Origin: Ramicandelaber brevisporus
Taxonomy: Eukaryota > Kickxellomycota > Ramicandelaberales > Ramicandelaberaceae
Assembly (NCBI GenBank): GCA_025201865.1
Contig: MU602917.1
Span: 1-29,113, forward strand
DNA: 29,113 bases
Direction: 5' to 3'
Shown here in pieces: positions 2,194 to 29,083 of this stretch. The number at the start of each line of letters is the position of its first letter. The first letter of the stretch is position 1. The position numbers and the translations under genes were made by a program. Below the pieces are notes generated by a model, which made no database searches, was not told where the DNA came from, and saw only the letters and a program-made list of their open reading frames with translations.

Positions 2194-3034
2194 TTAACCA
2201 AGCTGCACGTATGCTGCCGGGAAGAGACCTTCTTTGCCGTCAGGATTGCGACCAGACCACCAGTCATCGGACAGCTTCTTAATGTCGGTAATGATGTCAT
2301 CCTCGCGGAACGTAATTTCTGAATCATCTTCAGCATCATAGTCATACATGGCAATGGCAACAAGCTCGCCCGCAGCTGGCGCAGCAGCCATTGGTGGTGG
2401 TGGTGGAGCAGCCGGCACAGCAGCCATGGGTGGCGGAGGAGGTGCAGCGGGTACTGCAGCCATTGGCGGAGGGGGTGGCGCTACTGGGATGCTGGCCATA
2501 GGAGGTGGCGGCGGTGCGTTGGGAATAGGGGCAGAAGCACCCATTGGAGGCGGAGGAGGAGCCATTGGAATGGCGCATCTGATGGGCGAAGATGGAGCTG
2601 GGGCTGCAGACATTGGCGGCGGAGGTGGTGCCATTGGAATTGCTGCCATGGGTGGAGGAGGTGGCGCAGCTGGAACGACTGATGCAGCTGGCTTGGGTGG
2701 CTGCTTAACCTCGGAGACATAGTTGGCAGGGAACAGGCCAGCACGACTTCCATCCTGAGACTTGCCATGCCACCAATCATCATCAACCTTGACGATTTCA
2801 ACAATAACATCACCTTCATTGAATGACAGCTCGGTATCGTCTTCAGCAGCGTAGTCGTATTCAGCAACTGCAGTGAGCTCACTCTTTTCGTCATCCTTGT
2901 CAAGCTTCAGGTTATTGGTGCCGGCTGTGACGGTATCAACAGTTGGCTCCTTCTTCAGAATCAAGTCGTTCTTGGCAGCATCCAATGCAGCACGAGTCTC
3001 GCGTTCTTGGCGTTCAATCTCGGCAGCCTTGCGT

Positions 3035-3072
<38 letters not shown>

Positions 3073-4416
3073 TTCCTCTTCGGCTCTGCGCTTGTCTTCC
3101 TGCTGTTGACGAATGCGACGCTGCTCTTGTTCCTCGCGTTCGGCTCGTTCACGGCGCTCGCGCTCAGCACGCTGGTCACGCTCGATGCGCTCCTTCTCTT
3201 CACGCTCACGACGCTCCCGGTCAAATCGCTCTTGCTGTTCGCGCTCCCGTCTTTCACTCTCGCGACGCTCCTCTTCACGCTGACGACGAATGCGTTCGGC
3301 CTCATCACGCTCACGTTGAGCAGCTTCGGCGCGCTCCCGCTCCTCACGAGCCTGCTGAACAGCTGCCTGTTGCTCACGTTCTTGTTCACGCTCACGCTCC
3401 TGCTCAGTAGCACGCTCGCGCTTAAACTCTTCCTCACGCTGACGACGGACTTCCTCATCCTGCTGGCGACGCTTCTTGTCTTCTTCTTCGCGCTGCTTCC
3501 ATGCTGGCACAGTGTTGACAGGAACATACGAACCAATCTTCCACTTAGATTCCTTTGGCTTATTGAGAGCGGTATCGGACTGTTTGGGAACAAAGCTGGT
3601 GGATGATGGAGGAATGTACGAGCCACGCATTGATGAGACTGTACCAAGAGACGCAGTTGCTACTCCCGAGCTGCCGACGTTGCTGGTGCTGCTGGCTGAA
3701 TAAGAGGAGGAAGAAGAAGATGCTGTGACTGGGGTTGATGAGAACGAGGGCTTCGATGGGCTTGCTGGACTAACTGGGCGGACTGAGGGAGCTGGCGGCA
3801 CAGTTGAAGAGGATGGCGCAGTTGGTGGGGTCCAGCGTGGTTTGAATGCAGGCTTGGCTGGCGGTGGTGCAGCTGTCTTCGCAGGCACCACAGGTGCTGG
3901 CTTCGCGGTGAATGCAGGCTTCGATGATGGGACTGCAGGTGCCGGCTTACTCGGCTGAGAATGAATCGAATATTGTGATCCGGAGCTCTCGCGCAGCTTA
4001 CGCAAGATGGCATCGGGCGATACATCGTCGTCATGGCGAGCATCGATCTGGACATGGAAGCCACGCAAGAAACGAGAGGCATCATTTACATGCCCAAAGA
4101 ACATGCCCTTGTTGGACACTGGGACGCCTTGGCCACACCATGACACAAACGCAATCTTGGGCAGTCGTGAGTTGGGATCCTGGGCTTTAACGAAGCCAAA
4201 CAGGCACTTGCTGTCACTAAACTCGTCTTGGAACTCGGCAAGGATGTCATCTGCATTGTCAGAGCCAGAGTCGGTGGACTGTGAAACGACTTTCAAGTCT
4301 GGAGTGCCGCGGTCGTAGCCAAACACGGCCCAGGCACATTGCTGCTGAGAGTCCAGGACAGCCTGGTGGGCGGCTTTGAGAGCGCGACCGTGTGTCTGGA
4401 GATTGAGAGCCGACAT
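2194..4416 (-). CDS. ABP1: Abp1/drebrin-like actin-binding protein (ADF-H, coiled coil, two SH3)
   Basis: 740 residues. Abp1 binds F-actin through an N-terminal ADF-homology domain and recruits kinases, synaptojanin-type proteins and amphiphysin-type partners to endocytic actin patches through SH3. Domains in order: ADF-H (about 1-137), a Pro/Ser-rich linker containing two similar GSY(I/V)P motifs (near 265 and 297), a very charged Arg/Glu coiled coil (about 306-485) with a 12-Ala run (450-461), SH3-1 (about 513-570, with ALYDY-like EYDYAAEDD and a DDWW), a Pro-rich hinge (572-682) with seven APPPPPM units, and SH3-2 at the C-terminus (683-740). Two SH3 domains fit filamentous-fungal rather than S. 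cerevisiae Abp1, which has one. I do not see the separate acidic DDW Arp2/3 motifs of yeast Abp1. The start ATG (4414-4416) begins the ADF-H domain directly. Confidence 0.93.
2388..2680. repeat. Repeats coding the APPPPPM units of ABP1
   Basis: This coding minisatellite of CCTCC/GGTGG-rich units encodes seven copies of Ala-Pro5-Met separated by short Ala/Ile/Val spacers. The last three units are nearly uniform at 36 bp. Such Pro5 tracts are typical profilin or SH3 ligands and sit between the two SH3 domains of the same protein. Confidence 0.85.
3035..3068. repeat. Perfect (GCA)n trinucleotide run in ABP1
   Basis: About eleven uninterrupted GCA/CAG units encode the poly-Ala stretch (450-461) of the Abp1-like coiled coil on the minus strand. 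The run is pure, unlike the mixed CAG/CAA glutamine runs elsewhere in the window, so length variation is likely. Confidence 0.85.
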
Positions 4417-4788
4417 CTGGTAGTTTGGTCAGCGCGTTTGCAATCAAGCGTGGAGTAAAAAAAGAAAGAAATCTGATGAGGAAGAACTCTGCCTTCCGTG
4501 CTTTCTGTGTGCTTTGTGTGCTTTTTGTGTGTTCCACTCGTTCTGTGGTAGAGAGGCAGGCACGCAACAAACGCAGCTTGGCAAGCAAGTCCAATATCAC
4601 GCATACAGCTTTTACCCGCTTTCTTTTTTTCTTGTGCAGCCATCGCCGTCGTCGTCGTCGCCGTTACCGTCGTTGTCGCCTTTACACTTTACGCTTTACG
4701 CTTTCTCTCTTTCTTTCTTTCTCTCGCTCTCTCTCGATAACTTTCATAGCTTTTGCCTCCTCCATTCCCTCTCCAGTAGTCTTGACAA
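4417..4788. promoter_or_regulatory. Divergent ABP1-SLA1 intergenic promoter region
   Basis: 372 bp separate the ATGs of ABP1 (-) and SLA1 (+), with no other gene between, so both promoters must lie or overlap here. Visible structure: GTGTGCTTT-type repeats at about 4497-4531, a CGTCGTCGTCG patch at about 4645-4660, three CTTTACRCTTTACG-like copies at about 4680-4705, then a polypyrimidine tract (about 4706-4736), probably in the SLA1 leader. No TATA box is evident. Transcription starts are not determinable from sequence. Confidence 0.7.
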
Positions 4789-7374
4789 ATGCCGTTTGCA
4801 GACGCAGTGCGAGCGATATACAACTTTACGGCGACAGCTGATGACATGCTGTCGCTGCGCCAGGGCCAGGTTCTCTACAGCCTGCCACCAGTTGACCCGG
4901 AAGATGCAGCCTCTGGATGGACAACTGTGCGCGAGCGGATCCCGGCAGATGAGACGGACCCGGACGCAGTGGGGGCAACTGGCCTCGTGCCAGCGTCGTA
5001 CATTGAGCCACTGCCAGCCAAGTCAAAGCATGTTATGAAGTGGGCGTATGTGGCACGAGATGGAGAGGACGAGGAGCTGACAGTGTCCCAAGCAGGTGCC
5101 ATTGTAGAGTTGCTGGATGATGGCGATCCTGACTGGTGTCTGGTTAGATTTGACGCTCAGGCTGGTCTAGTTCCTCGTTCGTATGTCGATTTGGATAATA
5201 AAGCTGATGGTCCTTCTTCTGATTCATCTTCAGCATCCATATCTGCGCCTACAGCCGCTGTCAATAAGGTACCAGAGGCAGTGAACCAAGCTACCATTCA
5301 GACCACAGTGACATCTCCCGCATCTCCGGCCCGTACAACTGGTAGCGGTGTTGGTGGCGGTGGTAGTGCTGGCAGCATTCGTCAGCCAGCTCACCAACGA
5401 CGCCTCAGCACAGCATCGACCGTGTCAAACTCATCATTTGCATCAATTCCACCAAAGTCGGCATCGTATCCAATTGCAAAAGTGCTGGCAACGTTTGAAG
5501 CACAAGACTCGGATGAACTATCGGTCATTGCTGGACAGTATGTGGTTTTAATGGATAACGCAAGTAGCGAAGAATGGTGGCAGTGTAGACTGGCTCCAAG
5601 TGATGAAGATCCAGATGGAATCGACGCAGAGTCCCAGCCACAGGGATTGGTTCCTGCTAACTGGCTTAAGATTGTGTCCCAGCCACCGAAACAGCTTGGT
5701 TTAACTCCCCCATCCGCTGCTACTAAGCCGGGTCGCAGTCAAGTCATACCTGCGAATGCTGCGAATGCTGCAAGTAATAGAAGAGCATCTGGAGGTTCAT
5801 CAGCTGCGCCGGCTCTTCCAAAGAGATCAAATGCTAACTTGGATGAGCTCAAACAGTCTTTTGATAAGGTGACAATGGGAGGTGATTTGAAGACTAAACT
5901 CACTGCAGCATCAACAACCGAGTCGTCATCATCAGCTGCACCACAAACACCTGCCCGCAGAGCTCAGCAGCATCAGCAGAATACGCCAAACAGTCCAGCC
6001 GATGACAATGTCCCTCTTCAGCAGTTGATGGCTCAAAAGAAACAAAGTCAGCAGCAGAACCAGCAGCAGAAGAAGAAGCAGTTGCCAGCAGTTTCAGTTA
6101 TTCGCAAACCAGGAAGTAATCAACAAGTGTCATCCTCTGGCCGCACGAATCGACCAGGTGCATCGTCATCATCAGCATCAGCAGCAGCAGCCAATCCAAG
6201 TAACAATAATAGTAACAGCAAGAATTTACCAGAGATGAGTCAGGTTCGCAATTGGACAGATGCAACGGGCACATTTAGAATTGATGCGCAATTCATATGT
6301 GTTCATGACGATGGTAGAATTGAATTGCTGAAAACTAATGGAAACTTCATCAAGGTTCCTATTGAGAAACTAAGCAGATCCGATTTGGTTTACTTGGAAC
6401 ACGCAACTGGACAGCCTCTGCTAAACTTGATTGAGCCAGAAGTCCCCAAATATAACGAAAACTTTGAGTGGTTTGATTTCTTTACGCTTAAGTGTGGAAT
6501 CAATGCAGATCAGGCACTTAAATATGCCAGAGCATTCACTGCAGAAAGACTGGATGATTCAAACTTACTTGATTTAACCAGAGATACAATCAAGTCACTG
6601 GGTGTAACCGAGGGCGATGTTTTGCGTATATTCAAAGGAATTGAATTGACTACTGGCAGAAAAGTGCTTCCCTCCTCTATTGGTAGCAATAATACTCAAG
6701 GGTCTACCTCACAGCAAGCCAACGCTGCCACCACTACCACCACCACAACTTCTTCTCAGACTCAGCTTCAGTCTCAAGCACCAGTTGCCACTACTGCCAC
6801 TACTGGGTCTCCCGGTGCAGTTTCTGATCCAGCCGACCCATTTGCAGGTCTCGATGCCTTCTTTAGTTCTGGTCCAGTCCTGACGCCAACTCAGGCTGCA
6901 ACAACATCTTCTGTCTCGCCAGCCACACCAGTTCTGAGCACAAATGGATTGCAGCGCTCAGGCAGTCGGCGACCAGCACCTGCTCGACCAGCTCCATCTT
7001 CAGTTGATGCAGAGAATATTGCAGCTGTTCAGAGAATGTTGCTTCATCAGCAGCAACAAAAGAAACAGCAGCATATTCAGAAAGATCCTTGGATGAATGC
7101 ATCCAACTCACCTGCAGCTAACATGAAACCAATCTTAAATCAAGGTAAACCTGGCCAGCAACAGCAACAGCAACAGCAACAGTTACAGCCACAGTTACAG
7201 CGTAGATCACTGGGTGGAATTGGTGCATCTGCTTCAGTTGGAAACCTGGCATCAACCGCTACGCCGCCTCCATCGATGCCATCTAATTTGAGTGTCAATC
7301 CAATGGGTAATATGCATAGACAAGCCTCATCGGCCACTCAATTACCTCTTCAGCAATCTCTCCATCATCATCAT

Positions 7375-7406
<32 letters not shown>

Positions 7407-8265
7407 CTCATCTTTATCATCACAGTTGCAACGTCCTCTCGTTCCCGCTGCTTCTTCTCTCCCACCACCATTGATTCCAACTCCAGCTGCGGGCACATCG
7501 TCGGCAGGAAACACTCCGACTGTGGCTAAATTCATTCCCACTCATCAATCAATGCGTCCAACCACAAGCCACCAGTCAGCAAACCAATCTCCCGCTTTCA
7601 ATACATTTAACCAACAGCAGCAAACAGCACATCAGCAGCAGCCACAAAGAATAATCCCAGCGTCTGCAGCAATGATGATGTCAGGAAATCAAACTATTGC
7701 TCAACAGTTGGAATTAAAGAGACAGCAAGAAGAACTGGCTCGTCAGCAAATGATGTCAAGAATGACTGGAAACACACCCACTAACCAGCAGCAGCAGCAT
7801 CAACAGCATAGCAACGTGTTCCAAGCAACCCCACAAGGTGTCTTTGCAACCCAAGCTCCTGCACAGCCAAACGTTGGATTTAACGGTAATTTAATGCTAA
7901 CTGGCCCAGCAGCAGCATCAGCAGCGTCACTTCACCAGCAGTCCAAGTATGATGTGTTTAGAGCAGTTAATCCATCGGCACCAAGCAATATCTTTGCACC
8001 TCAGCAGCCAGTTCAGCATCCACAGCCACAGCCACAGCCACAGCAGCAGCCATTTGGAGGCGCATTCCCTGTTCAGCAGCAACAGACACCACAGCCATTC
8101 ATGATGCCCCAGCAGCAGCAACCACAGCAACCACAGCAACAGAGTGCATTCCCATCGGCAACTACGCCGCTGTTCAATGCTGATTTTGGCGGCGCTCCAG
8201 GTGCAAGCATGTGGCCACCACAGCAGCCTGCTCAGCAGCAGCAGCAAGCATTCCGTCCTTGGTAG
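4789..8265 (+). CDS. SLA1: Sla1-like endocytic adaptor (three SH3, SHD1, SHD2/SAM, Gln-rich tail)
   Basis: 1158 residues. Sla1 is the fungal adaptor of clathrin-mediated endocytosis that binds NPFxD cargo signals through SHD1 and restrains WASP (Las17) through its SH3 domains. Domains in order: SH3-1 (about 4-76), SH3-2 (about 81-137), SH3-3 (about 225-298), SHD1 (about 483-545, starting with VRNWTDATGTFRIDA), SHD2, a SAM-like domain (about 555-622, WFDFF...GINADQALKYA...LGVTEGDVLRIF), then a long Gln/Ser/Pro-rich tail (about 625-1158). The order is the same as in yeast Sla1, though the C-terminal repeats of yeast Sla1 are here replaced by Gln-rich sequence. A DPF motif (PADPFAGL, near 690) could bind adaptor appendages. 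The start ATG begins SH3-1. The frame is intact and ends in TAG. Confidence 0.93.
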
Positions 8266-9092: not shown

Positions 9093-9100
9093 GTTAAAAG
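9093..9100. repeat. Left 8-bp target site duplication
   Basis: GTTAAAAG immediately left of the TAGGG terminus, identical to the copy at 10051-10058. Confidence 0.85.
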
Positions 9101-10050
9101 TAGGGATAAAAATTTTCGTGGGCGCATACTTGAAGTATGCGCTGCAATAGCAAAATTTCCTATTGAAAACGGCATCGAAAAAGTTGTCTATGGTGGAACT
9201 ACCGGTTCTTTGTGATCAACCTCACCTCCGACTCCATGTATGTGTAAAGTTCAGAAGTCAAGCTATCCATATTGCTATAGCATGATGGGGCTGGCGGAGG
9301 TGTCTCACACACACTTTTGTCGTCGAAGTTGAGTTTCGAGTTTTGCAAAGTACTTGAGAAAAGTATGCGCCAGTCGCGGATTCTTCAGGAGGTTACAGCC
9401 CGCCTCAGACAATTGCGAGAAAAAATTATTTCGTCGAATTGGCCGAAAAAAATCGATCGAATTGCATGTAGCTGTTGTACATGCTCATAGTCATCGACTG
9501 TTGGTGTCTACGACCATCTGGAGTGCATTGCCGCCATGTCGGACACCAAGCCACAGCCCAGGCATTCTCGCTTGGAGCGCGCTACTGTATTCACTTTGCG
9601 CGCTGAAGTTGACGCCGTAGACTAGCTGGCAGCAGCCAAGGGAGAACACCGTCGGTGCCGTGAATGCCTCAGGTAGTTGCTGAGCTGGACTCTACACGTT
9701 GATGTGTGGTCATCTCGCAGTCGTGTTTGCGTATTTGGTGTGGTTGGCGCTGCGCTGGCTGGCCGGCAAAAAAAATTGTCGAAATAGAAAGTCGCATACA
9801 GGCGAAATTGGCACTCGTTCTGCAGATTAGTTTGTTAAGAAGCTGTTCACCGATCGAGACGGGCCGTGGACCAGTGGAACCGCAGAGACCAGAGGCTCAC
9901 GCATACTTCAAAACTATACTGGCCATTGCTAGTGAGAAAAAGGCGATATTGAATTTCAACCGATTTTTTTTGGCCTCCAAGAGCGCCAAAATTGCGCATA
10001 CATAAGAGAAAAAAGTATGTGAGGCTGAGACCCCTCGATTTTTATCCCTA
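9101..10050. mobile_element. Nonautonomous hAT-like DNA transposon (950 bp)
   Basis: The left end starts TAGGGATAAAAAT (9101-9113) and the right end is its exact reverse complement (10038-10050). The element is flanked by an identical 8-bp duplication GTTAAAAG (9093-9100 and 10051-10058). An 8-bp target duplication with a terminal TAGGG matches the hAT superfamily pattern (YARNG termini). There is no transposase frame; the longest internal frames are about 90-100 codons with no recognisable domain, so it is nonautonomous. It carries subterminal copies of a GCGCATACTT motif, including a perfect hairpin at 9122-9142. It sits in the convergent spacer between SLA1 and the P450 gene and disrupts neither. 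Confidence 0.85.
9122..9142. repeat. Subterminal hairpin, GCGCATACT arms
   Basis: A perfect 9-bp inverted repeat, GCGCATACT and AGTATGCGC, with a 3-nt loop, lies 21 bp inside the left end of the element. Related words occur at 9361-9370, 9900-9910, 9994-10000 and 10013-10021. Subterminal repeats of this kind bind transposase in hAT elements; that role here is inferred. Confidence 0.75.
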
Positions 10051-10058
10051 GTTAAAAG
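10051..10058. repeat. Right 8-bp target site duplication
   Basis: GTTAAAAG immediately right of the element's CCCTA end, identical to the copy at 9093-9100. Confidence 0.85.
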
Positions 10059-10337: not shown

Positions 10338-12248
10338 TCAGAGACCTTCAAATACAACGGCATCATCCAATGGCGGCTGTGATTCTGTCAATGTGACTCT
10401 CGACGGACGTCTCGTTCCACTGACCGTTCTAATTGCATACTTGCGCAGAATCAGCACCATCATCATCTTCATCTCATGCACCGCAAAGAACCTTCCAGGA
10501 CACGCATTTCTACCACCGCCAAAGTGTCTGAAATCTCTTGACACTGTAGTAGCACTCTTGCGCGGCACATTCACGAACCGATATGGATCGTACTTGAATG
10601 GCTGTGGGTGGATGTCAGGGTTAACGTGGGCATCGGTGGTGACAGAGATGCAGATGCGGCCTTCGGGGACTTGCATGCCGTTCGAGAAGGTGAGGTCTTG
10701 CATTGCGCGACGCATGGGAACAACTTGGAAAGAGTTGGTTCGCATGGTCTCGCGAATACAGGCGTCCAGCAGTGGCATCTTGGTAAAAGTATCGCGGTTG
10801 AGCGGTGGAGAAATGCCGCACGCAGCGTCATAGGTGGAGGCAGCAGAGGAGTTCTGCGAGGGGGATTTGGAAACTGGCGAGGCAGTGGCGGTGGTTGCAT
10901 TGGGTGGAGAGCCAGGACGAGATCCAGAGAGATCAATTGCAGAATCAGACGCTGCCAAATGCTGAAGTGAATCCATACCAGTAGCAGCGATGGCGGTAGT
11001 AGCCGCACCAGCAGCCGCATCGGCAGTTATTTGACCAGTTCCGCTAACATCAACGGACGCAGTAGACACAGTACCAAGCTTGTGCTGTTCTTCAATAATC
11101 GCTTGCATGATGTTAGCGCGACCAGTAGTATCAAAGATCAAATTGGCACCCGTGTTCGCCGTGGTGTGGATCGCTGCAAATACCATTGACATCAACGTGC
11201 GCGAAATCTGGTCGGCTGGTCGCTCATTGCCCTCATCATCCGGCACCTCCAGTAGCGATTGCATAATGTCATGTGGTCTCACAAACTCGACGCCTTGCTC
11301 AAACGCCTCACGGGCTTCGCGACGACGCTTCTCAATCTCTGGCACAACGATGCGCTCAAACACCTCGATGTGGCGCTGGAATCCGCTGAGTCGACGGATC
11401 AAAGGCTTGGTGATGAATTCCGGCAAAACTCGGGCAATTTTCGTACCGCGAGACACGCACACACCCATGTCGATGAAGCTGTCCAAAAGCTCGTCGTTAG
11501 CAGCCAGCTCGTCACCCACCAAGCATGCAGCGCTGGCACGTCCAAACACAAGCTCAACCAGATGCTCAACCTTGCGCACCACCTTGGTCTCACCCTTGGC
11601 AAGCGGGCCAACCTGGCGGTCGAGCTCAAAGGTCATCCACCGCTCCAGGCGCTCGTTAAAAGTGTCGAGGTTATGGTTTGCCTCCAGGCGGATAACGGGA
11701 ACCTGGATCTGATCTTTCCACGCGTCGTAGCCAAACTGCTGGTCGAGCATCAGGAAATGACCAAAGGCGCGCGGGAGCGACAGCAGACGGTCTGGAGCAC
11801 GGACAAACTCATGGTAGAGCTCGGGGCCGATAAACGTGAGGGTTTCGTTGCCGATGCGCAGGTTAAAGGTGCCGGCGTATTGCTGGCGAACACGCAAGAA
11901 GAGGGCGATTGGATCGCGAACCAAATCGAGAGCGTGGCCCAGAATCGGCAGGCCAAATGGCATCATTGGCGGCTCGTTCAGCTTGTAGTCACCGTTGGCG
12001 GCAGAGGGAGTCTTGGAGTCGGGAGTACAGCCGGCGTTGTCGGAAGAGGAAGAGGAGCGAGAGCAAAGGGCAAGAAGGAAGCGAACGACGATGCGGAGCC
12101 ACATTGATGTGACGAATATGGCGGCAACGGATAAAAAGAGTTGGAAGCGAGTAAAAGAGTTGGAGATGGTGATGCCGTGCCACCAAGCGCGCTGGAGGAG
12201 CGACCACTGCATAGTGGATGTGATGGGATGAGCTATATGCTGCCACAT
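10338..12248 (-). CDS. Membrane-anchored cytochrome P450 with an inserted low-complexity segment
   Basis: 636 residues from the ATG at 12246-12248. Microsomal P450s oxidise lipophilic substrates (sterols, fatty acids, secondary metabolites) using electrons from a reductase. Visible: an N-terminal anchor (about 37-62), the Pro-rich hinge leading to PFGLPILGH (97-105), an I-helix with AAIHTT (358-363), K-helix ExxR as ETMR (500-503), a YDPYRF meander motif (553-558) and the haem loop FGGGRNACPG (576-585) with Cys583 as ligand. The AAIHTT form resembles fungal kaurene-oxidase/desaturase-like P450s and CYP51 more than the usual AGxDTT. About 85 Ala/Ser/Thr-rich residues (393-480) are inserted between helices I and K, so the protein is long for a P450 (about 500). 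The frame stays open up to 12698, but the extra sequence is pyrimidine-strand low complexity. ATG 12212 is an alternative start. Confidence 0.88.
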   Translation of the reverse strand: MWQHIAHPITSTMQWSLLQRAWWHGITISNSFTRFQLFLSVAAIFVTSMWLRIVVRFLLALCSRSSSSSDNAGCTPDSKTPSAANGDYKLNEPPMMPFGLPILGHALDLVRDPIALFLRVRQQYAGTFNLRIGNETLTFIGPELYHEFVRAPDRLLSLPRAFGHFLMLDQQFGYDAWKDQIQVPVIRLEANHNLDTFNERLERWMTFELDRQVGPLAKGETKVVRKVEHLVELVFGRASAACLVGDELAANDELLDSFIDMGVCVSRGTKIARVLPEFITKPLIRRLSGFQRHIEVFERIVVPEIEKRRREAREAFEQGVEFVRPHDIMQSLLEVPDDEGNERPADQISRTLMSMVFAAIHTTANTGANLIFDTTGRANIMQAIIEEQHKLGTVSTASVDVSGTGQITADAAAGAATTAIAATGMDSLQHLAASDSAIDLSGSRPGSPPNATTATASPVSKSPSQNSSAASTYDAACGISPPLNRDTFTKMPLLDACIRETMRTNSFQVVPMRRAMQDLTFSNGMQVPEGRICISVTTDAHVNPDIHPQPFKYDPYRFVNVPRKSATTVSRDFRHFGGGRNACPGRFFAVHEMKMMMVLILRKYAIRTVSGTRRPSRVTLTESQPPLDDAVVFEGL

Positions 12249-15200
12249 TGCTGAGTGTGCCAAACAATAGAGGGATAATAAAACAAATAAAGCTAGTATG
12301 GTGAGTGTATCTGAGTACAGAAAAAAGGAAGTGGAAGCAAAAGGAATTGGAGGGGGAAGTTTTGGACAAACAAATATAAAAAAAACACTGGTGATGACGA
12401 TGCGTAGCTGATGTTGTTGATGACGGCAAAAAAAGTAGCCGATTATGCACTTGAATATAAGGAAGGAGAGCTCAATGTGGCTGAAGGAAAGAAAAAAAAT
12501 AGGATAGATAGAAAATAACAACGACCAGCTGTCAGCTATTGAGTGAAGCACAGGAGTGGATGACTGGGTGATCGGCGGATGGATGAAGTGCGCACTAGCT
12601 GCCACACTGGCTAATAAACAAACAGGAGGAATGTGTGGCGATAATAATTGCGGCAAATAAAAAGGAACGAGAAGGAGTAACGACAAAAAGTGGCTCACAG
12701 TGGTACAATAATGAAATAAATGAACGTGAGCAACAAATAGAGAGAAAGAGAGGTAGAGAGAGAGAGGGATGGCGATAGATTGATCAGCCGATGACGATTA
12801 CGCGCTACGAGCGTTCGGATGATGTTCTATTGGTAAAACACTCACTATAGAGAGAAGTGGATGCGATCGGGGGAGTGGCGTCCAACTTGAGCGACGAGAA
12901 GGAACAGATGAGGCACCAGGTGAAATGGAAACGGATGTGTAAATGGATATGGAAGTGTAAACGACGATGAACAAAAAAAAGCGGATGATGTGAAGGAAAT
13001 AGAATAGTCAAGAAGAAAAAAGAGGAATGGGCAACAGTTGGTAGGCAAGGGGGCACAAAACGGACGAGGAGGCCGGCGACAACAAGCCAAGTTATACGAG
13101 TAGCGTGTGAAAGCCTCCCAGGTCAGTCGTGGCTGCGAAACTGCGCTGACACCGCCACCGAAAGCGGAAGTTCTGTTTTTGTTTCTTCTAAAAAAAAAAA
13201 CAAGAACGCGGGAAAGCCACTCAGGAGGCGCCGCTGCGTTACGTAGGAATTGTTGCCGACTTGGCCAAAAGATGTGAGGCGAATATGAATACGACGAAGA
13301 AGCGGAAAAAAGAAGAAGAAGAAAGGCTGAGGAGGAGGTGGTGGTGGAGTTATTTGAAAGGATACCCGGATCAACGGCGAAGTTCCGCTTTGTGTTCAAT
13401 TGTGGCGCAAGGCAAAATATAAATTACTGTGAGAAATAGGACGCCTCTTTAATATGAAACGTGCGTTATAGTTTCCGTGATACAAGGAAGGCAGTCCAAA
13501 CGCAAAATGACGTATGTGGGTGAGCGGGATGCGTTGGCGAGTTGTGAGTATGGAAAGGTACAATATTGTACTGATGAGTGAGCGGATGGATGGATGGATG
13601 GGCAGATGGTGGACAAATGAGCTGAAGATTGCAAATTTGGCGGCTCGGGCTGGATGTGAGTGCGAGGAACTAGCTAGTAGAGTCTCACTTTATATAGTGT
13701 ACAAACCGGCAATGAATGGAGGGCGATGGCGAAGGTGAAGGTGATGGTGATGGTGGATCTGGGTCTTAGAAAGCGAATATGAAACTGCAATTGAAATTGA
13801 AGGAGCGAGGATGGCGTGCGAATGTCGAGTCGAGTTGAGTCGAGTCAAGAAGCAGTTGAGGCAGCTATTTGACGAAGGGGGTCTTCGCACCAGATCCACA
13901 AATGGTGATATTGGCAGAAAAGGAGGATAGCAAAAGAGCGGCAGAGGCGACGAAGGAGGGACGATTAATCAACCCGGCTGGCAAACCTAGTAGGCAAATA
14001 GCCGAGAAAACTGTGGAAAAGTATGTACGTGTGGTTATTGAGAGATGTGGTGGCGATCAAAAAAGGAGTCGATGGATGTCGAGTTGAGCGCTAGTCAGCC
14101 GGCAGATTGGGAGGGCTAGCTAACTAACTAGCTAGTGGGCGAGAAGAAAAGAAAGAAAGAACGAAGGAAAGAACGAAAAAGAGAGAACGAAAAAGAGAGA
14201 GCCCCAATGTGAAGCGAGTCGCTTTGGGCAGAAAGGAGTGGGAGTGCAGTGAATGGGCACCTCTTCGGCGTATTGGCGTGCGAACTTTGAGCAGGGGGAA
14301 GGATGCTCTTGGGCTTGACGTGAATGACAGACTTTAGTCTATGGTGTGGTGAGTACAGGTGTATGGCGCTGGAAACAAAAAAGGATTGAAGTGGAAGAGG
14401 TTGAATGGTTCTATAATGATGTGAGTAGAATGAAGTAAAACCACGGAAAAGAAATTGGAAGGAATCACAGAGATATTTTTGCCGAGATACTTTATACTAT
14501 TTTTTCCACGAGCGTGTACTTGTGCAAGTGTGAATGGCTATTGCCGATCATTGTGAACAAGCATATACACCACCTTGTGATATCCTATTGGTAGTTGCTG
14601 GAGTATACAAGACCGGGGAACCGCTACAGTGAAGTAAATGCTGCAGAGTTGCCTCTCGTTCTTGGCCTCAAATGTCCTTTCAGCCTATCAAATCCATGTT
14701 GCAAACACTAACAGCAGCAGAAAAGCTTATCGCAGTCACTCAGTTGCAGACTTGCACTGACAAAAAGGTCTATTTGCAGAAACATCACTGTCTTCTTCTT
14801 CTTCTTCTGTTTTTTTTTTCTTTCTGTTGCTGCACATCGCAGTCCGACTCGTGGCCGATGTTACACTAACGGGTTCCTTGCTACGTGGTGGCGCCAATTG
14901 GAGCAGCGACGAGTCAAAAACCAGGTCGGAATCAATCTGCCTGTTTCTGCCAGTCAATGCCGAAGCACGCGTTCACAGGGGACCCCACCAACATTCTCCA
15001 GCCCATACAACATCCTCCTCCCTCCCCCAACCGACCAGAGCCTGTAGAAGTGAACATGCAGACGCGCCGCAGAGTGCATACGCCATCAATGTGTAGGTGT
15101 ATTTTTCCACCATACACCTGCTATCTTTGCTGCCATGTCGCGTGGTTCATACACTGCTGCCGCAAGCGTTGTCAACTGAAGGCTTTAATTACATTGCGTC

Positions 15201-21479: not shown

Positions 21480-21661
21480 TTACTTTACTTTTCCCCCTTC
21501 CATCCACAATCGTTACTCATTACATTATTACTATTTTGCTACTTTCTTTTTTTTGCTCGATTTACTTTGTTTGCCTTTTGAATTTCCAATTTTGTTCTCT
21601 CGCGTTTTTTTTCTTCATCATTTTTGTTTCTGCTTTTGTTTTTTATTCTGATGCCCGTAAG

Positions 21662-22834
21662 ATGTCGAGATCAGGTACAAACAGAGATCAGTCAGCAGCA
21701 GCACAGCAACAGCAGCAACAGCAGCAACAGCAACAGCAAAAGCAGTCGAAGCAGCTGGACCAGCTGAAGCAGTCGAAGCCGGAAGAAGCTGCTCCTGTCA
21801 AAGTATCTGCAATGAGACGAGCTGAGCAATACTTTAAGGCTCGGAACCCACCTCCTGATTTGGACAGCTGTGCATTCGATGCTGAACGGTTCGAACAGCA
21901 CCCAGAACTAGTATCATCAGATCCATCGGCCTCTAAGCATTCACATTGGTTTGCCGATAACAATGGATTTGTTCGAGTCGAACTAAAGAAGCCTGTTTAT
22001 GGATGCACTCATGGCTGGATTCACGCAAAGAGACCTGGTATCATACTGCTATCGAGAGCAGTACCAGCTGACATGCAGTATCGTCTAATACACAGTGCAT
22101 TGACAGCATGGCCACGGGATTTACGAAACAAATCAAACGTCGACAATGTGAGTGCAAGCGGAATCATTCGAACAGAAGGCAGAAGTCTGTGGGACATTTA
22201 TCTTGGCAATCAACTAGGACAACAGCCATCAGCAGCAGAGTCACTAAAGAGACTAATCAAAATGAGATGGATTACACTAGGTGCACAGTATGATTGGACA
22301 TCAAAGACTTATGATAAACCACACGACGAGGAATGGCCCGAAATGCCTCCAGAGGTTGCAGAATTAACGTCACTAGTTGTTGACGCTGTCGACGGTCTCG
22401 CATGGCCGCAAGTCGACGCTGACATTGCCCCGTTTGTGAATAGATACCCAGCTTCACAGTATGCAGCAGAGGCTGCCATCGTTAATTACTATCAGCCACG
22501 CGACACGCTAACTGCCCATGTTGATCGGAGTGAATACAACATGGAGGCACCACTTGTCGCAACCAGTCTGGGCCAAGGCGGAATACTGCTCGTTGGTGGA
22601 CACGACAGAGAAGAAGCACCGTTACCGCTTGTTGTACATAGTGGAGACATTGTGGTAATGTGTGGACCCGGAAGAGCTGCGTACCATGGAGTTCCGCTGG
22701 TGTTTACCGAGCAACTACCTCCATTCCCTGCTAGCGAGGTGATCAGAGAGGATGAATCGAAAGAGGAATGGGATACTCTACTCCAATTCATGTCTACATG
22801 CCGTATGAACATTTCAGTCAGGCAACTTAACTAG
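21662..22834 (+). CDS. ALKBH1: ALKBH1-like 2OG-Fe(II) dioxygenase
   Basis: 390 residues from ATG 21662; an in-frame extension to 21536 has no ATG and encodes T-rich-strand Phe/Leu. AlkB homologue 1 enzymes use 2-oxoglutarate, O2 and Fe(II) to remove methyl groups from nucleic acids; ALKBH1 has been assigned tRNA m1A and cytosine and DNA N6-methyladenine activity. Family features: KPVYGCTHGW and PGIILLSRAVP early region, LIKMRWITLGAQYDWTSK (the ALKBH1 LRW.TLG.HYNW motif), then the catalytic core HVDRSE with Fe ligands His286 and Asp288, HSGDIVVMCGPGR, His342 in YHGV, and 2OG-binding arginines Arg381 and Arg387 (CRMNISVR). All key residues are present. The N-terminus has a run of about 12 Gln encoded by mixed CAG/CAA. 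Confidence 0.92.
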   Translation: MSRSGTNRDQSAAAQQQQQQQQQQQQKQSKQLDQLKQSKPEEAAPVKVSAMRRAEQYFKARNPPPDLDSCAFDAERFEQHPELVSSDPSASKHSHWFADNNGFVRVELKKPVYGCTHGWIHAKRPGIILLSRAVPADMQYRLIHSALTAWPRDLRNKSNVDNVSASGIIRTEGRSLWDIYLGNQLGQQPSAAESLKRLIKMRWITLGAQYDWTSKTYDKPHDEEWPEMPPEVAELTSLVVDAVDGLAWPQVDADIAPFVNRYPASQYAAEAAIVNYYQPRDTLTAHVDRSEYNMEAPLVATSLGQGGILLVGGHDREEAPLPLVVHSGDIVVMCGPGRAAYHGVPLVFTEQLPPFPASEVIREDESKEEWDTLLQFMSTCRMNISVRQLN

Positions 22835-27835: not shown

Positions 27836-29083
27836 ATGCCGCCAAAGACTACTGCTGTCGCCAAGCAGGCCGCTGCCGTCAAAAAGACTGCTATCGCCAA
27901 GAAGGCTGCTGCTGCTGCTGCTGTTTCGGAAATTGAGGTCGACCCCCAGATGAAGAAAGAAGTACAAGCGCTCAGCGGACTTCGCAAAGCCGTTGTTGGT
28001 CTCAAGTCTCGCTTCGTTGTTAGTGGCCACGCCAACGTTGGTAACAAGGTGTATGTCGAGGCTGAAGGGGATGGTGGTGACAAGGCTGACGTGTTCAGCA
28101 TGCCTGCCGATGCCGCGCGTTTGTACCAAGCCGGTGCACTTGCGACATTTGGTCGTGGCAAAGAGGAGGTTCTTGACCCAGACTATCGTAGTGCGCGTGC
28201 TTTCAAGCCAAACAAGTTCCAGGTCCATGTGTCGGACTTGTTCGCGATTGTTCATGATGTGACCCGTGCACTGCTGCCAAATAATAGTGACGCTGTGTAT
28301 TTGGTGCCTGAGATCTGCAAGCTCAATGTTTACAAGGAAGGTGACAAATTCAAGCCTCATGTCGACACGATCACTAATAATCGTCTGGTGGCATCGCTGG
28401 TGCTGTGCCTGCCATCTTCGTTCACTGGAGGCGAGCTGGTTGTATCGCACGGCGACAGCGAGCACATGGTCCAGTTTGGAAGCTCTGACGCCAATGCTGA
28501 TGAAAATAAGCTGTGCAACTGGGCTGCATTCTACACCGATTGCGTCCATGAGATTCTGCCTGTTATATCTGGCTACCGAGTTTCAGTTACATACAACTTA
28601 CTCGCTGTCAAGGATAGTGTCCAGCATCTACCACTTGTCGTCGATTCACCAGTGAAGATCATGCTAAGTGAGGTTGTCAAGTCTGGATTCAAGGGCAAGC
28701 TCGCCATCCCTGCTCAGCATGCATACCCGCACACCTCTGGTTTGGATTTCCAGCTTAAAGGCGCCGATGCTGTCATCTATTCCGCTGCCAAGTCACTCGA
28801 TGTTGGCATCAAATTGGTACCTGCTGCCACCAGCAAGAATTTGCTGAAGGAAGCTATGAGTTACAAGGAGCCAAAAGGTCAATGGAAGCGTAACCGCGTC
28901 CAGCTTAGTGACTCTGAAGACAGCAATGGTGACCACCATGTTACGAACACACGCATGCAGTATATCAAGGAACATGGATTTGAGGTGGGTGGTTTGTTTT
29001 ATCATGAATTCACAACTGCACGGGTGGGCCGTTTTTACGTAAAATATTCTGTCCTACAAGTCTGGACAAATTTTTTTACGTAA
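27836..29083 (+). CDS. 2OG-Fe(II) oxygenase, prolyl-4-hydroxylase-like, probably truncated at its C-terminus
   Basis: 415 residues as read. The N-terminus is Lys/Ala-rich (about 1-30). The catalytic core has LVPEICKLNVYKEGDKFKPHVD with Fe ligands His175 and Asp177, a strand GGELVVSHG, His238 in DCVHEILPV, and the 2OG-binding Arg248 in GYRVSVTYNL. This is the P4Hc-type double-stranded beta helix found in prolyl hydroxylases and related fungal oxygenases; substrate unknown. A further region (about 285-330, AIPAQHAYPHTSGLDFQLKGADAVIYSAAKSL) matches what follows the core in larger fungal homologues. From about residue 396 (base 29021) the frame enters A/T-rich sequence with repeated TTTACGTAAA words and stops at TAA 29081-29083. 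The last 20 residues are therefore probably not original coding sequence: either an insertion or an unseen intron. Confidence 0.85.
   Translation: MPPKTTAVAKQAAAVKKTAIAKKAAAAAAVSEIEVDPQMKKEVQALSGLRKAVVGLKSRFVVSGHANVGNKVYVEAEGDGGDKADVFSMPADAARLYQAGALATFGRGKEEVLDPDYRSARAFKPNKFQVHVSDLFAIVHDVTRALLPNNSDAVYLVPEICKLNVYKEGDKFKPHVDTITNNRLVASLVLCLPSSFTGGELVVSHGDSEHMVQFGSSDANADENKLCNWAAFYTDCVHEILPVISGYRVSVTYNLLAVKDSVQHLPLVVDSPVKIMLSEVVKSGFKGKLAIPAQHAYPHTSGLDFQLKGADAVIYSAAKSLDVGIKLVPAATSKNLLKEAMSYKEPKGQWKRNRVQLSDSEDSNGDHHVTNTRMQYIKEHGFEVGGLFYHEFTTARVGRFYVKYSVLQVWTNFFT

Follow-up and report, generated by a model that had tools for sequence, protein, structure and literature searches.

Copy-specific sets of putative transposase-binding sites in a small hAT-like, nonautonomous transposon family of Ramicandelaber brevisporus

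A 29,113-nt stretch of the Ramicandelaber brevisporus genome (hereafter the window) carries a 950-bp transposon with a short motif, spelled GTATG(C/T)G in this copy, at dispersed sites. In other complete copies of the family, seven of these sites have changed together. We read the element as a nonautonomous, Ds-like transposon moved by a hAT-type transposase encoded elsewhere, with motif sets that record changes of transposase specificity, and we place the probability of this reading at roughly 0.6. The dispersed sites themselves are most likely transposase-binding sites that changed as sets along with the specificity of the transposase.

Direct reading of the window letters gave the element (Table 1), its perfect 13-bp ends and its exact 8-bp duplication just as a first-pass annotation had described them. 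When the entire window was scanned for perfect inverted ends (11 bp or longer, separated by 200-3000 bp) with matching 8-bp flanks, no second such structure appeared; the shuffle control for inverted ends was run under a looser 6-bp rule only, which yielded 53 pairs in 200 single-base shuffles, or about 0.27 each. The element sits between the 3' ends of two frames, one SLA1-like (4789-8265, plus strand) and one P450-like (10338-12698, minus strand). Around it, Pfam places adjacent and divergent Abp1/drebrin-like and SLA1-like genes at window positions 2194-8265 and two 2OG-Fe(II) oxygenase-like frames at 21536-22834 and 27836-29083. An Abp1/drebrin-like protein had its best hits in Entophlyctis, Tieghemiomyces and Dispira (45-48% identity across 20-25% of the query), genera that point to a fungus, probably an early-diverging one. 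The P450 profile has 35 matches in the 17.9-Mb genome, exons counted apart, and one of these genes adjoins the element.

Table 1 Features of the element in the window
Feature	Position	Strand	Basis or size
Target-site duplication, left copy, GTTAAAAG	9093..9100	.	direct reading
Nonautonomous transposon, 950 bp, long form	9101..10050	+	direct reading and copy comparison
Left terminal inverted repeat TAGGGATAAAAAT, 13 bp	9101..9113	+	
Motif site A, GTATGCG, left arm of palindrome beside left end	9123..9129	-	
Motif site B, GTATGCG, right arm of palindrome with A	9135..9141	+	
Motif site C, GTATGTG, solitary	9238..9244	+	
Motif site D, GTATGCG, solitary	9363..9369	+	
Long-form interior	9467..9750	+	about 284 bp
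Site H, GTATGCG	9793..9799	-	
Motif site E, GTATGCG, solitary	9900..9906	-	
Motif site F, GTATGCG, inverted partner of G	9995..10001	-	
Motif site G, GTATGTG, inverted partner of F	10015..10021	+	
Right terminal inverted repeat ATTTTTATCCCTA, perfect complement of left	10038..10050	-	
Target-site duplication, right copy, GTTAAAAG	10051..10058	.	

Queries against the genome (17,887,837 bases in 510 contigs, the window being contig C239) were the full element, its two ends taken singly, the copy on C182, the fragment on C20 and end patterns. DNA and end-pattern searches together placed the family at a minimum of 12 loci, window included, a count that is a lower bound. Complete copies were called where both ends were present and the flanks matched near-perfectly over any length between 5 and 10 bp. 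Besides the 950-bp window copy, with its perfect 8-bp duplication GTTAAAAG, these were C7:27844-28529 (686 bp, GATGTGGG), C310:15355-16039 (685 bp, GTTCCACG) and C182:12460-13132 (673 bp, GTAATAAA), each again with a perfect 8-bp duplication. Although 5-10 bp was allowed, 8 bp was the only length obtained, in 4/4 complete copies. Because each of the four has its own perfect 8-bp duplication, the family is a DNA transposon. The strongest support for the element comes from the three other complete copies, which have ends of the same kind and three further perfect 8-bp duplications. This genome shows neither of the two outcomes that the annotation had named as contrary, a sequence in single copy or a duplication of some other length.

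The remaining loci are partial. The right end is kept in C20, where homology starts 156 bases from the contig start, and in C431; the left end is kept in C152; and C105 (left end altered to TATGG), C188, C267, C284 and C282 are fragments. No longer or autonomous copy was found in the genome with the queries listed above; one left-end locus runs into N further in, so a longer copy may still exist. The 13-bp end pattern with one mismatch was hardly commoner than its reversed control (38 places versus 35), and we therefore restricted family places to those with an inverted partner and a duplication, or with homology beside the end. Eight of the 38 places had no assigned locus, and one of those, on C431, was found through the other searches. 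The long-form interior of the window copy is mostly missing from C7 (686 bp), and C310 lacks almost the same segment; since pieces of it are present in five other loci (C105, C20, C188, C267 and C284), the short form looks like a deletion derivative of the long form. In the right part of the copy alignment, columns 826-900 are 92% identical among the four complete copies, against 53-93% for 25-column windows elsewhere. Near the C188 fragment, the open frame at L007:2284-3162 has an arginine-serine repeat early on.

The window contains GTATG(C/T)G at eight sites. There the word CGCATAC/GTATGCG is counted six times, above the top word of all 300 shuffles, and the top 7-mer count beat 300/300 shuffles in the window copy, C7 and C310 and 280/300 in C182. 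Sites A to G change together at homologous columns of the other complete copies, whereas site H does not: it keeps TATGCG in C310, C182, C20 and C431 though their other sites have changed, and so provides an internal contrast. The set is spelled GTATG in the window copy and C7, (C/G)GATGTG in C310 and TGATGA in C182, where six sites were scored, site A being unrecognisable. The base before ATG was T at 7/7 sites in the window copy and 7/7 in C7, and G at 7/7 in C310 and 6/6 in C182, counts that include the inverted pairs A/B and F/G, whose members are not independent. The next two bases beyond ATG were CG (5) or TG (2) in the window copy, CG (6) or TA (1) in C7, TG (7) in C310, and AC or AG (6) in C182. 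Site F of C182, C105 and C431 was scored at a shifted column. These subterminal motif sets are absent from the first-pass annotation.

Partial copies extended the range of spellings, with GATGCG at 3/3 sites of C20, TGATGG at 3/3 sites of C431, and GATGCG and GATGCA in C152. Fragments were less regular. C105 has mixed spellings at six sites, the base before ATG being c, g, t, g, a and g; C188 offers two sites that contradict each other, and for one of them, site E, the ATG scored lies two bases away from the aligned column; and C284 is without an ATG core at either of its aligned sites. With a single aligned site apiece, C267 and C282 are uninformative on agreement.

We measured the joint change by permutation, shuffling alleles among copies site by site 20,000 times. 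Among the four complete copies, within-copy agreement at the base before ATG was 1.00 versus 0.50 in shuffles (reached by 1/20,000), and at the first base after ATG it was 0.79 versus 0.35 (0/20,000); the second base after ATG gave a weaker excess, 0.82 versus 0.68 (174/20,000). Taken jointly, the four flanking bases agreed at 0.865 versus 0.497 (0/20,000). The same joint measure over nine of the 12 loci, C105 and C188 included, was 0.762 versus 0.428 (0/20,000); that set omits C267 and C282, which have a single site apiece, as well as C284, whose two aligned sites lack the ATG core. Position by position in the four complete copies, the material also used for the word counts, excess agreement fell at -4 to -1 and +1 to +3, each with a fraction of at most 0.009 of 5,000 shuffles; among the 13 outer positions (-10 to -5 and +4 to +10), -7 alone was below 0.05 (0.028; 5,000 shuffles). 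Within-copy agreement spans about 8-10 bp. A no-choice test, which scored all trinucleotide cores conserved at six or more places, gave ATG a z of 5.5 with three copies (12 places, 21 cores tested; next best core 1.9) and 6.5 with four copies (6 places, 11 cores tested; next best core 2.3), while random seven-site sets reached at most 2.4 in 300.

The motif flanks also diverged more than their surroundings. They matched at 12/28 positions between the window copy and C310, versus 0.839 for the rest of the element, and correspondingly at 10/28 versus 0.856 for C7-C310, 2/24 versus 0.716 for window-C182, 2/24 versus 0.695 for C7-C182 and 8/24 versus 0.734 for C310-C182. The pair that shares a spelling, the window copy and C7, had no such deficit (24/28 versus 0.830). 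On the motif strand, T had become G at 7/7 sites between the window copy and C310, compared with 2.1% for T to G and 1.9% for A to C at other positions. A tree of the non-motif columns joined C7 with C310, at modest support (74 and 83), though C7 has the spelling of the window copy.

These sets could have arisen in the following way. A transposase supplied from elsewhere would bind the motif, in inverted pairs near each end and at solitary inner sites, and the bound transposase would draw the ends together, excise the element and reinsert it with an 8-bp stagger. When the recognised sequence shifted, copies whose dispersed sites had come to match would be the ones moved, so that selection at the level of the element would fit whole site sets to the changed transposase as the remainder of the element drifted. 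In Ac, the transposase binds hexamers that are repeated in subterminal DNA (PMC3260210, in excerpt). Turnover of tandem repeats fits poorly, because the sites are single and dispersed; within the inverted pairs A/B and F/G, one member could correct the other as part of a palindrome, but C, D and E, which stand alone, follow as well. The spellings GTATG(C/T)G, (C/G)GATGTG and TGATGA require a minimum of two switches of the whole set, or perhaps four when the partial copies C20 (GATGCG) and C431 (TGATGG) are counted. We give even odds to the broader proposal that one small genome preserves alternative complete sets of putative transposase-binding sites, 8-10 bp in size, as a fossil record of repeated specificity switches achieved by substitution, without tandem-repeat conversion.

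The choice of superfamily depends chiefly on the ends and the duplications. YARNG-type ends are a mark of hAT elements, and TAGGG stands at both ends in 4/4 complete copies. The P and Merlin superfamilies make 8-bp duplications, and one of them, or Zisupton/KDZ, might move the element in place of hAT, a reading that we consider improbable. The hAT target consensus is nTnnnnAn, and its match at 5/8 positions in the four duplications (P 0.027-0.058) leaves some room for such a mover without being decisive. Zisupton does make 8-bp duplications, as hAT elements usually do apart from hAT5, hAT6 and hAT7 (PMC12730594, in excerpt). However, the window end TAGGGATAAAA agrees at 10/11 positions with the Ac/Ds end, given as C/TAGGGATGAAA and compared in its T form (PMC3260210, in excerpt). 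The hAT profiles PF05699, PF14372 and PF04937 had 0 matches in the genome, which favours another superfamily, but the KDZ profile PF18758 had 0 as well, and all of these profiles were silent in 14/14 control genomes, so that both absences are weak. The same profile search finds the 35 P450 matches, the window's own included, and the method therefore works here for that family. The annotation's description 'hAT-like, nonautonomous' is well supported by the Ac/Ds-like ends and the 8-bp duplications; membership in the hAT superfamily proper is unproven, since no transposase was found and the hAT profiles are silent in controls too. The genome bore out the predicted copies with different 8-bp duplications (4/4 complete copies), but the predicted autonomous hAT copy did not appear.

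A hAT-like family might also carry motif sets that bind some other factor, such as an anti-silencing or host protein, or that suffer sequence-specific silencing, and the joint change would then have arisen for that reason. We hold this to be unlikely, though the foremost of the alternatives. VANDAL motifs are bound by an anti-silencing protein and their sets differ between related copies, but there the joint change is attributed to tandem repeats (PMC5735166, in excerpt), whereas here seven dispersed sites in both orientations, with unlike flanks, have changed. Sites C and D, solitary and lying 138 and 263 bp in from the left end, would suit such a factor, and the inverted pairs beside both ends would better suit end recognition. 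As for chance, alignment or site choice, with sites that drifted independently, the copies are few, the sites were first spotted by eye, the inverted pairs inflate the count, and C105, C188 and C284 misfit. We nevertheless regard this as very improbable given the permutation and no-choice controls, the over-representation of the motif as a word in each complete copy alone, and the uniform T to G change at all seven sites between the window copy and C310, set against 2.1% of other T. Against our preferred reading, in which the sets follow a hAT-type transposase, stand the failure of H to follow, the misfit of the same three fragments, the lack of any transposase in view, the spelling that C7 shares with the window copy despite grouping with C310 elsewhere, and the small number of complete copies, four in all.

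The family is small and old. Pairwise identity among the four complete copies is 71-87% with the motif sites set aside, and the 12 loci include no near-identical copy such as a recent burst would leave. The suggestions of a recent insertion and of a family possibly still moving are not supported, the complete copies differing by 13-29%. The perfect duplication is no mark of recency for the window copy, because all four complete copies have one. In trees covering eight and five of the 12 loci, the terminal branch of the window copy was the shortest, at 0.043 and 0.051 substitutions per site, respectively; this copy may be the youngest of the tree sequences, though its branch length gives no insertion date.

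Coding capacity appears to be lacking, as the annotation had noted in finding no transposase frame. The longest stop-to-stop frame in the window element is 100 aa, a length reached by 266/500 shuffles, and four element frames had no Pfam match at E up to 1. A decayed coding frame is not supported, although a remnant may exist: differences in codon phases 0, 1 and 2 came to 0.193/0.234/0.150 for the left core and to 0.176/0.127/0.140 for the right. As the best of six frames, the lowest changing-to-silent ratio was 0.50 in the left core (minus strand, four copies, no stops) and 0.53 in the right core (minus strand, eight copies, 14 codon pairs with stops); with four copies the right core gave 0.59 at lowest, on the plus strand. 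C182 has a minus-strand open frame of 144 aa (L014:1085-1516) that spans both conserved cores, and 20/500 shuffles reached at least that length; in each of the other three complete copies the longest frame is unremarkable versus shuffles. A protein search found no relative of the 144-aa frame at E up to 1, and neither it nor the other frames tried had a Pfam match. The minus strand of this frame has a weak bias to silent changes.

Without its motif sets, the element would be one more small hAT-like family in a seemingly poorly sampled fungal lineage. The broader issue is how a transposase changes specificity when many sites per element must follow. The copy-specific whole sets provide natural matched variants for binding and excision tests, and they suggest a route by which related nonautonomous elements in one genome could turn invisible to each other's transposase. 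In the open-access literature, judged from titles and abstract lines, we found no report of joint change of subterminal sites in hAT elements.

One likeness lies with the VANDAL/VANC system of Arabidopsis, whose VANDAL elements are Mutator-like. Like the present family, they carry short, repeated, noncoding motifs in sets that vary from one related copy to the next. VANDAL motifs are often in tandem repeats, coevolution with the binding protein has been proposed for them, and their sets are reported to change via these tandem repeats (PMC5735166, in excerpt), whereas in our family the changes are of single bases, at seven dispersed sites whose surroundings are conserved. Zisupton/KDZ elements resemble the family in the 8-bp duplications of Zisupton (PMC12730594, in excerpt) and differ from it in that the ends here are Ac-like and no KDZ domain was matched in the genome, in a search equally silent in controls. 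hAT MITEs such as Mar of Drosophila are likewise short nonautonomous hAT elements without coding capacity, a likeness drawn from their description (PMC3517528, in excerpt). Maize Ac/Ds, a hAT system, has in common with the family 8-bp duplications, similar ends and short nonautonomous forms with repeated subterminal motifs, but it uses one hexamer, AAACGG, family-wide, and many Ds1 elements hold fewer than three copies of it, some moving without any (PMC3260210, in excerpt). Here, by comparison, there are three motif spellings among the complete copies, and no Ac-like gene was found in this genome. As far as we have seen, the element represents a new family, of a kind already known, and its whole-set motif switching makes it a variant worth study.
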